In this document: in pieces, positions 32,259-34,840 of the stretch | Layout: each line of letters starts with the position of its first letter | Numbering within the stretch: the first letter of the stretch is position 1 | DNA from: a virus | DNA length: 64,000 nt | IMG/VR virus record: IMGVR_UViG_3300037140_000081 | Coordinates: 1-64,000 of that record | Reading direction: 5' to 3' (one strand) | Notes under the pieces: generated by a model | What the model was told of the DNA's origin: nothing | Database searches by the model: none | What the model saw: only the letters and a program-made list of their open reading frames with translations | Translations under genes and position numbers: made by a program

Positions 32259-32527
32259 AACCAGACCACGTTTCAACAACTGAAGAAATGATTTTAAATC
32301 CTATGGCGCTCCCTGCATATATGCGGGGTTCACGATACTTTAGAATTGAATACATTGATCCTTTAACCGGTCATAGCAACACCGAAGGCAGCATATATCT
32401 TCCAGATGTTCCCGACATTTATGAGGTGCTTGATAAAATTGAGGGGCTCATTCAGGACGCATACAAGCAAGTATCTGAGAAATCTGCTGAGGAGCAGAAA
32501 ACAAAAGAAACGTGCCCTCTGACATAA
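32255..32527 (+). CDS. Acidic small protein, 90 aa
   Basis: 90 aa. FRIEYIDPLTGHSNTEGSIY then IYEVLDKIEGLIQDAYKQV. Mixed alpha/beta, acidic. Its end overlaps the start of the polymerase gene by 16 nt. Function unknown; perhaps a polymerase accessory by position. Confidence 0.6.
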   Translation: MKPDHVSTTEEMILNPMALPAYMRGSRYFRIEYIDPLTGHSNTEGSIYLPDVPDIYEVLDKIEGLIQDAYKQVSEKSAEEQKTKETCPLT

Positions 32528-33471
32528 AACTACTATTCCTAGATTTCGAGACATATTACGACAACGAGTACTCGTTGCGTAAAATGCCGACACCCAACTA
32601 CATTCTGGACCCCAGGTTCGAGTGTCAGATGGTTGCTGTCGAGGAATTTGGCGCGGGTGCCCAGATTATTGATGGGCCGGATTTCCCGCATTACCTGAAA
32701 CAATTTGACCCCCGCAAAACAATCACGGTATCTTTCAACGCGCTTTTCGATGCGTCGATATTGGCGTGGCGCTATGGCTTTGTGCCAGTCCGCACTCTGG
32801 ATACGATGGGCATGGCGCGGGCGTTGATGGGCCACAAGCTGGTGCGGTTCTCATTGGGAGCCGTTGCGGAAGCCTTGGGGCTAGGCGCAAAGGGCAACGC
32901 GCTGGTCAAGGTGCTGGGTATGCACGCCCCCGAAATCAAATCGCGGGGCTTGTGGCGAGAGTTCAGCGCCTATGCGTTGCAGGACAACGTGCTGAACCGC
33001 GATATATTCCTGCGGCTGATCCCGCACTTTCCTGTATCCGAACGCCGGCTGATGGACTTGACGCTCCGATGCGCCATTGAGCCACGCTTCCGCATGGACA
33101 TAGGGATGCTCACGCAGCACCTGGCGGACGTTCGTGTGGCTAAGGCTGAACTACTTGCGGGGGCTGGTGTCGAACTGACCCAGTTAATGTCGGCCCAGAA
33201 ATTTAAGGAAGCCCTGGAAGCGTTGGGCGTCGAGGTTGAAACCAAAGTAACGGTAGCCGCCCAAACTAAAGCAGACGCAACAGGTGAACCGCCTGTGCGG
33301 ACGCCGGCGTTCGCTAAGACCGACGAGTTCATGGCGGGGCTACTGGACCATGAGAACCCTGCGGTGCAGGCGCTAGCCGCTGCAAGGCTGGGGTTCAAGT
33401 CTACCCTGGAGGAAACGCGATGCGAGAAGCTGTTATCCATCGCTAACTTGGATTGGAGTTTCTTGAAATGA
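32512..33471 (+). CDS. Family A DNA polymerase, N-terminal part (exonuclease and thumb)
   Basis: 319 aa from GTG 32512. The 3'-5' exonuclease begins at once: LLFLDFETYY (Exo I DxE), SFNALFDASIL (Exo II), YALQDNVLN (Exo III D). The thumb-like region ends ALAAARLGFKSTLEETRCEKL, exactly where intact PolA homologues continue into the palm. The reading frame stops at 33469-33471, and the stop overlaps the start of a homing endonuclease gene. The palm and fingers are in the next polymerase gene, so the enzyme is made in two pieces. Confidence 0.9.
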   Translation: MPSDIKLLFLDFETYYDNEYSLRKMPTPNYILDPRFECQMVAVEEFGAGAQIIDGPDFPHYLKQFDPRKTITVSFNALFDASILAWRYGFVPVRTLDTMGMARALMGHKLVRFSLGAVAEALGLGAKGNALVKVLGMHAPEIKSRGLWREFSAYALQDNVLNRDIFLRLIPHFPVSERRLMDLTLRCAIEPRFRMDIGMLTQHLADVRVAKAELLAGAGVELTQLMSAQKFKEALEALGVEVETKVTVAAQTKADATGEPPVRTPAFAKTDEFMAGLLDHENPAVQALAAARLGFKSTLEETRCEKLLSIANLDWSFLK

Positions 33472-33896
33472 GCAGCTGGCGCAATTTGATCGGTAGTGAC
33501 CGGCGCTTGTATTACGCATGGAAGGCTATGCGTAATAGGTGCAACAATAAAAATACCCCGTGTTATCACTCCTACGGTGGCCGCGGCATTGGCATCTGCA
33601 AACGGTGGGACAGCTTCGCCGTATTTGCGAATGACATGCGGTTTCATCCGGGTAAAGGTTGGACGCTGGAACGTAAAAATAACAACAAAGGATATTCTCC
33701 CCGCAACTGTGTGTGGGCAACACGCCAACAACAAGCGATAAATAGACGGACTTGCGTGCTCACCGCGCGGCTCGTCATACGTATACGGGCGTTGTATCGT
33801 CGAGGAGTATCGCAGGCCCACCTGATAAAAATGTTTGGGGTGGGTAGTTCTCAAGTGTCACGTATCGTACGGGGGCAAATATGGCAAAGCATATGA
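33468..33896 (+). CDS. Homing endonuclease (HNH/AP2-like) splitting the DNA polymerase gene
   Basis: 142 aa from ATG 33468 (ATGA overlap with the first polymerase part); a TTG start at 33453 is less likely. Motifs YGGRGIGICKRWDSFAVF and WTLERKNNNKGYSPRNCVWA are diagnostic for a phage family usually annotated HNH endonuclease or AP2-type. The C-terminal helix-turn-helix (IRALYRRGVSQAHLIKMFG) would recognise DNA. Its last 16 nt overlap the start of the second polymerase part. No room remains for a self-splicing intron around it. Confidence 0.85.
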   Translation: MSSWRNLIGSDRRLYYAWKAMRNRCNNKNTPCYHSYGGRGIGICKRWDSFAVFANDMRFHPGKGWTLERKNNNKGYSPRNCVWATRQQQAINRRTCVLTARLVIRIRALYRRGVSQAHLIKMFGVGSSQVSRIVRGQIWQSI

Positions 33897-34840
33897 TGCC
33901 AGTGCCGCTGCGCTACGGCGGTGCCCATACGCACCGCCTAAGCGGGGAGTGGGGGATCAATCTCCAAAACCTGCCGACTGTGCGCGGAAGCAAAGGCAAG
34001 TCAAAGCTGAGGCTGGGCCTCACGGTGCCCGAAGGCCACTCCGTAGTGGCTGCTGACCTAGGCCAGATCGAGGCTAGGCTGGTGGCATGGATATGCGGTG
34101 CCCTGCCACTATTGCAGCAATTTCGGGACAGGCTCGATCCTTATGCAATCATGGGAAGTCTGATCTTTGGATACCCGGTAGACCCCAAGGTGCATCTGCT
34201 GGAGCGGTTCATTGGAAAAACCGCGATCTTGGGGCTAGGCTACGGCTGCGGGGCAACCAAGTTTTACAACATGGTTATCATGTTGGCACGGACGCTGGGC
34301 ATAGACCTAGGGACCATGTGGACTATGGAGCTGGCGCAGCAGTCGGTGGACACATACCGCACGGTGAACGCTCCTATCCAGTACAGCTGGCGTAAGCTGG
34401 ACCAGGCTATCAGGACTGCCTGGCTGGGCAAAGGTGGTCCGGTCCAGTTCTTGCCATGCACAATCGAGTATGGCGAGGTGAAGTTGCCGAGTGGCTTGTC
34501 CCTCAAGTATGACCGACCGGCGTTTGATTTTGAGACCAATGAGCATACGTTCTACTATGGCAAGTTCAAGCACAAGATATATGGTGCTAAGCTATTGGAG
34601 AACATCGTGCAGGCGCTCGCCCGGATAGTGGTGATGAACGCCGCCCTGCGTATAGCTGACCGGGGCTACAAATTCGCGCTGCAAGCGCATGACGAGCTGG
34701 TTTTCGTGGTGCCAAATTCAGAGGTTGACAAGGCCCTGAAAATCATCCATGAAGAAATGGTGAGACCCCCCTCATGGGCACCCGACCTACCCCTAACCGC
34801 CTCCATCGGTGTTGGTGTCAACTACGGAGAAGCCAAATGA
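33881..34840 (+). CDS. Family A DNA polymerase, C-terminal part (palm and fingers)
   Basis: 319 aa from ATG 33881, GGGGG ribosome site upstream inside the endonuclease gene. Begins MAKHMMPVPLRYGGAHTHRL, then GEWGINLQNLP (fingers entry), motif A VVAADLGQIEARL, motif B RFIGKTAILGLGYGCG and motif C LQAHDELVFVV, all intact. It lacks any exonuclease. With the first part it rebuilds a complete T7/PolA-like polymerase, presumably by non-covalent assembly. Confidence 0.92.
   Translation: MAKHMMPVPLRYGGAHTHRLSGEWGINLQNLPTVRGSKGKSKLRLGLTVPEGHSVVAADLGQIEARLVAWICGALPLLQQFRDRLDPYAIMGSLIFGYPVDPKVHLLERFIGKTAILGLGYGCGATKFYNMVIMLARTLGIDLGTMWTMELAQQSVDTYRTVNAPIQYSWRKLDQAIRTAWLGKGGPVQFLPCTIEYGEVKLPSGLSLKYDRPAFDFETNEHTFYYGKFKHKIYGAKLLENIVQALARIVVMNAALRIADRGYKFALQAHDELVFVVPNSEVDKALKIIHEEMVRPPSWAPDLPLTASIGVGVNYGEAK

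Follow-up and report, generated by a model that had tools for sequence, protein, structure and literature searches.

Organization of the polA locus

The window analyzed here comprises 64,000 nucleotides (positions 1 to 64,000) of the 64476-base record IMGVR_UViG_3300037140_000081 of an uncultured IMG/VR virus. The polA locus occupies positions 32512-34840 and consists of three overlapping genes arranged head to tail on the plus strand in three different frames. PolA-N (33471 being its last position and 32512 its first) begins with GTG, encodes the 3'-5' exonuclease and thumb in 319 aa, and terminates in ..LDWSFLK-TGA. A free-standing HNH-like endonuclease gene of 429 nt (33468..33896; 142 aa) follows, and PolA-C (33881..34840; 319 aa) encodes the palm/fingers of a family A polymerase. 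The PolA-N stop and the endonuclease start share a 4-nt ATGA overlap (33468..33471), likewise present in related loci L007 and L333, and the endonuclease gene overlaps PolA-C by 16 nt (33881-33896). These coordinates, lengths, and overlaps are as given in a preliminary description of the locus, which also assigned each part its own start signals, a claim with fair support: a GGAG (33455..33458) within the WS codons of PolA-N, identical in L007, lies 9 nt upstream of the endonuclease ATG and is its likely ribosome-binding site, and a GGGGG (33871..33875) located 5 nt upstream of the PolA-C ATG is a possible ribosome-binding site for PolA-C.

In profile searches PolA-N corresponds to positions 670-944 of phrog_17 (E 3.9e-21) and PolA-C to positions 965-1233 of the same family (E 1.2e-48); PolA-C also matches Pfam DNA_pol_A (E 3.8e-23) and, at the profile level, Klenow/Taq chains, and PolA-N shares 48% identity with the N-terminal part of the unsplit relative L008. 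The exonuclease motifs LDFET, NALFD, and YALQDN are all located in PolA-N, and motifs A (DLGQIEAR), B (RFIGKTAILGLGYG), and C (AHDE) are intact in PolA-C. The two genes together thus have exonuclease, thumb, palm, and fingers homologous to those of Pol I as well as motifs A/B/C, the combination that defines a Klenow-type family A enzyme. At the level of sequence, PolA-N and PolA-C are confirmed as two separately encoded parts of one Klenow-type family A polymerase, and the split proposed earlier is borne out by the profiles, by alignment to unsplit relatives, and by the structural model of relative L013 described below. The preliminary description had also raised the possibility of another full polymerase; none was found in the record, where neither PF00136 nor PF07733 has a match and PF00476 matches at the split locus only. 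A DnaQ-like exonuclease-subunit gene (window 18421-19191; phrog_403, E 2.8e-89) is found just before the terminase gene, separate from the split polymerase.

Position of the break in split and unsplit relatives

Among 229 distinct related loci in which both parts are present, 226 consist of one open frame, and the split is found only in the window, in L007, and in L333/L334. The unsplit homologues are single ORFs of roughly 610-690 aa and include RHph_TM3_14A (43% identity) and the IMG/VR sequences L012-L017 (61-69% identity in the polymerase part). Alignment with unsplit homologues, a check suggested in the preliminary description, places the junction in a variable loop after ..LDW, between this near-invariant W and MPVPLRYGGAHTHRL; the loop ranges from 5 to about 30 residues in unsplit loci. 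PolA-N continues for 4 residues past the conserved W, and 5 residues of PolA-C precede the conserved MPVPL. To place the break in three dimensions, the unsplit relative L013 was modeled with AlphaFold2 (mean pLDDT 92.5); the best Foldseek matches of this model are Klenow (E 1.2e-20) and Bst fragments. The break falls at about residues 307-315 of the model, past the last thumb helix (290-302) and ahead of the first palm strands. On this model the split site is confirmed as the variable-length loop joining the last thumb helix to the palm, in agreement with the thumb-palm boundary proposed from the window alone.

L333 and L334 are contigs from two metagenomes that share one junction and whose halves, 313 and 345 aa long, are identical. 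The C-terminus of L333 PolA-N, LPWPDWILK, lies at the same place as the window break, and its stop overlaps (ATGA) a 16-codon ORF, MSRGTIADVVKNRWWQ, which is followed by TGAATG and PolA-C (MVCLMPIPLRF..); 47 nt separate the PolA-N stop from the ATG of PolA-C. When the 16-codon ORF is compared with the C-terminal motif of the endonuclease family, its score is reached by 0.3-0.5% of shuffled peptides; because it fits this motif better than 99.5% of shuffles, these 16 residues are probably what remains of an endonuclease. Recurrence of the same junction in L007 and in L333/L334 indicates that the split is not due to chance. In the polymerase tree L333 is located among the unsplit loci L023/L018/L019/L051, apart from the window and L007, and the starred branches require the split state to have changed twice. 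The two changes may represent two invasions or, instead, a split transferred by homing. A single origin of the split is rejected by the same branches unless the split itself moved by recombination.

The inserted gene and its proposed exchange between alleles

The inserted gene encodes a nuclease region (about residues 10-97) followed by an HTH-like C-terminus (about residues 98-138). It matches the phage HNH families phrog_8790, phrog_374, phrog_3377, and phrog_2081 with E values from 2.4e-34 to 2e-17, keeps every column that is invariant in 15 relatives, and yields a structure model with pLDDT 88.8. A sequence search of the PDB returned no relative, a Foldseek search returned no significant match and only weak HTH resemblance, and members of this family have Arg where HNH proteins usually have their first His. 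For these reasons nuclease activity of the insert, as read from sequence, is not assured and is the weakest point of the explanation favored below.

The ORF is outside any intron or intein, and relatives of the same length stand alone at other genomic places. Members of the family are found directly upstream of polA, with ends overlapping or abutting, in L014, L020, L033, L057, L093, L330, and L360, directly downstream of polA in L020, and within polA inteins in L059, L104, L144, and Caulobacter phage RW. This distribution fits repeated targeting of polA by endonucleases of this family. A scan of genome contigs for the family returned only four distant relatives, in MAGs. The polA inteins, which end in VHN before S/C, occupy several different insertion points (L059:3132-3947, L104:5796-6452, L144:5278-6030, and L195:3237-3896, where L195 is Caulobacter phage RW, MK929790). 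An HNH ORF of the same family, about 213-271 codons in length, is nested out of frame in these inteins with the intein frame open throughout, and such an out-of-frame overlapping endonuclease inside an intein looks unusual.

A close relative of the window, L007 (IMGVR_UViG_3300050019_000089), has 98% protein identity to it in PolA-N and 97% in PolA-C and the same SFLK-stop/ATGA junction, and the SFLK codon differences between the two are synonymous. The endonucleases at this shared junction are 45-47% identical. The differences between the two polymerases are mostly synonymous (dN/dS 0.083 for exo and 0.122 for pol), indicating that both halves are, by this measure, under purifying selection. 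Immediately 5' of the endonuclease gene and abutting it is a tract of 52 nt (33414..33465) with low identity to L007, upstream of which about 720 nt are 97-100% identical per 60-nt block. On the 3' side, 71 nt encoding polymerase motif 1 (33908-33978) are identical in the two alleles and sit between the endonuclease and a second divergent tract of 94 nt (33979..34072), after which identity returns to 98-100%.

The divergent flanking tracts are the pattern expected of homing with co-conversion, or of allele exchange with a diverged split donor. The signature is supportive rather than proof because other recombination blocks are visible in the gene, with further divergent tracts between the window and L007 at the 5' end of exo and at pol codons 197-281; general recombination could produce the pattern. 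The two endonucleases might also descend from one old insertion and have diverged quickly, and the endonuclease tree does not decide between replacement and divergence in place. A search for an endonuclease-free allele at ~98% identity found none. The gene had been described as a free-standing homing endonuclease; its free-standing character stands, its HNH-type character is probable, and we infer homing from the allele replacement and the flanking divergent tracts. L007 also contains a second endonuclease of the same family (L007:9135-9410), located between sequences matching window positions 37774 and 38236 and having no counterpart in the window.

Interpretation and relation to known systems

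We consider it highly probable that a free-standing homing endonuclease split polA at a tolerant loop and that the two resulting chains reassemble. A free-standing gene of the HNH family would have entered polA at the variable-length thumb-palm loop, bringing with it the stop that ends the upstream part and the start codon from which the downstream part is read, and the three genes would be translated as one coupled operon through the ATGA and 16-nt overlaps, without splicing. PolA-N and PolA-C would be made separately and associate into one Klenow-type polymerase, an association proposed because the break affects a loop that is not part of the active site. The presumed targets of the endonuclease are alleles in coinfecting phages that lack such a gene or contain a different one; recombination would copy the endonuclease gene, together with flanking tracts, into the cut allele, so that different endonucleases would come to occupy the site. 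Decay of the endonuclease would leave the polymerase split, as has probably occurred in L333/L334. Both the activity and target of the endonuclease and the assembly and activity of the chains are inferred. The broader proposal, that the thumb-palm loop is a recurrent landing site at which rival polA-associated endonucleases compete, and that their decay leaves a two-subunit polymerase in a ratchet from one chain to two, seems to us evenly balanced between true and false.

Several other explanations were weighed. HNH genes are common in introns of phage DNA polymerases, group I introns in CB7 and Bastillevirinae among them (PMC7344957, PMC11878797), and the insert could in principle be a group I or other self-splicing intron with an endonuclease ORF overlapping its core, such that splicing restores one chain. 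We regard this as very unlikely. In addition to the ORF, phage introns contain non-coding sequence of a few hundred nt (PMC11878797), whereas the entire interval here codes for the endonuclease and can be aligned over its full length with free-standing relatives in other genomes, and Rfam detects no intron at the gathering threshold in the window, L007, or L333 and none at a permissive threshold in 33300-34050; the earlier statement that no sequence is left for an intron therefore holds. The locus L333 is still split with just 47 nt between its halves, so no intron is possible there, and the synonymous SFLK differences likewise argue against an intron. In other phages, split inteins occur with endonuclease genes between their halves (MIJ3, PMC6892783), and halves of this kind could trans-splice the two parts into one protein; however, the interval between the conserved W and MPVPL has no room for intein halves, and this explanation is scarcely credible. 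An in-frame intein is excluded, since each of the three genes has a frame of its own.

Equally improbable as an intron is a dead remnant in a phage that relies on the polymerase of its host or on another one. An essential gene is interrupted, and the 64-kb record has no end repeats and may be incomplete, both of which would be compatible with such a remnant. However, dN/dS remains low across both halves, the catalytic motifs are all intact, no other polymerase of the families tested is found in the record, and the split is common to alleles with many silent differences. Somewhat less remote, but still unlikely, is that the insert, with its HNH-like fold and HTH, is a non-homing DNA-binding protein acting as an accessory to the polymerase or as a regulator of the operon. 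The missing canonical first His and the clear HTH-like C-terminus are consistent with this role, whereas conservation of the nuclease region throughout the family, the patchy occurrence of relatives beside polA and inside polA inteins, and the presence of a different member with divergent flanks at the same site argue instead for the homing endonuclease.

Precedents exist for a gene divided in this manner. In Aeromonas phage 25, gene 43 is split (43A/43B) with the Seg43 endonuclease between the parts, which co-purify and are active (PMC2988022); as in the window, a replicative polymerase is encoded by two genes with a free-standing endonuclease gene between them, although the phage 25 polymerase belongs to family B and its endonuclease is Seg-type. 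In the related phage 44RR gene 43 is interrupted by non-coding sequence, and the cause of the split is thus uncertain (PMC2988022). In Aeromonas phage Aeh1 the HNH gene mobE splits the essential nrdA without splicing, and the two chains form the active enzyme (PMC2988022). The window is similar in having a probable HNH-type gene that splits an essential gene, apparently with no splicing, but the split gene of Aeh1 encodes a ribonucleotide reductase, and an RNA hairpin controls mobE. No mobE-style hairpin sequestering the ribosome-binding site was detected beyond chance at the endonuclease start (z 0.2 and 1.0); at the PolA-C start the same test gave z -2.4 in L007 and no such signal in the window.

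In the Methylophilales phages MEP401/MEP402 a family A polymerase is encoded by two ORFs with a small ORF between them, for which the authors allow an intron (PMC10580990). That break falls in the stretch separating motif 1 from motif A, about 40 residues beyond the break in the window: MEP401 gp13 ends after TGRLSSSSPNLQN.., gp15 starts at motif A, and gp14, a 77-aa ORF, has no relation to the window endonuclease. The window is accordingly not a MEP401-type split, having a different break point and a different small ORF. The earlier remark that a thumb-palm split in a family A polymerase appears unusual is qualified by the precedent of MEP401/402, which are split at another site. The interrupted polymerase genes of CB7 and Bastillevirinae resemble the window in the probable type of gene inserted, but are spliced introns with non-coding intron sequence, of which the window has none; an unspliced free-standing HNH gene is also found in CB7 at the 5' end of the phage polymerase gene (PMC7344957). 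The split-intein (fractured gene) system likewise divides a DNA polymerase gene, of family B, around an HNH gene, but its break is flanked by intein halves, which are absent in the window. For huge gut phages, too, endonuclease-split DNA polymerase genes have been mentioned (PMC12363816). In the open-access literature no report was found of an HNH endonuclease splitting a family A polymerase at the thumb-palm loop. Phage 25 and Aeh1 have already established that essential phage genes split by endonucleases work as two chains. The split in the window extends endonuclease-driven gene splitting, at a defined loop, to Klenow-type polymerases, whose structures are among the best understood of any polymerases, and it suggests how a Klenow-like enzyme might be split by design after a natural example. 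The allele series (unsplit, with a first or a second endonuclease, and with the endonuclease probably lost) is a testable one for how a selfish gene could convert a one-chain enzyme into an obligate two-chain enzyme.

Other features were noted in the window and its relatives. The frame of the exonuclease active-site motif is intact in 222 of the 229 loci, and five unsplit relatives have a +1 disruption between LDF and ET of this motif (L014:3055, L020:3073, L359 near 1583, L200 near 3998, and L033 near 3104). In four of the five the disruption falls on one and the same codon, with UUU_CGA in L014, L020, and L359 and UUU_UGA in L200; UUU_CGA is also the sequence at the influenza PA-X +1 frameshift site. 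An endonuclease gene is directly upstream in three of the five. From these sequences a programmed +1 frameshift controlling the exonuclease is possible. Two tandem tRNA-Glu-like genes (window 30356-30432 and 30455-30531), also present in L007, have an anticodon loop of 6 or 8 nt rather than 7 (..CCCCUCAG..), and ARAGORN assigns them no amino acid. Finally, one 8-kb viral contig contains two tandem family A polymerase-like stretches (L010:2566-3306 and 4995-5780).
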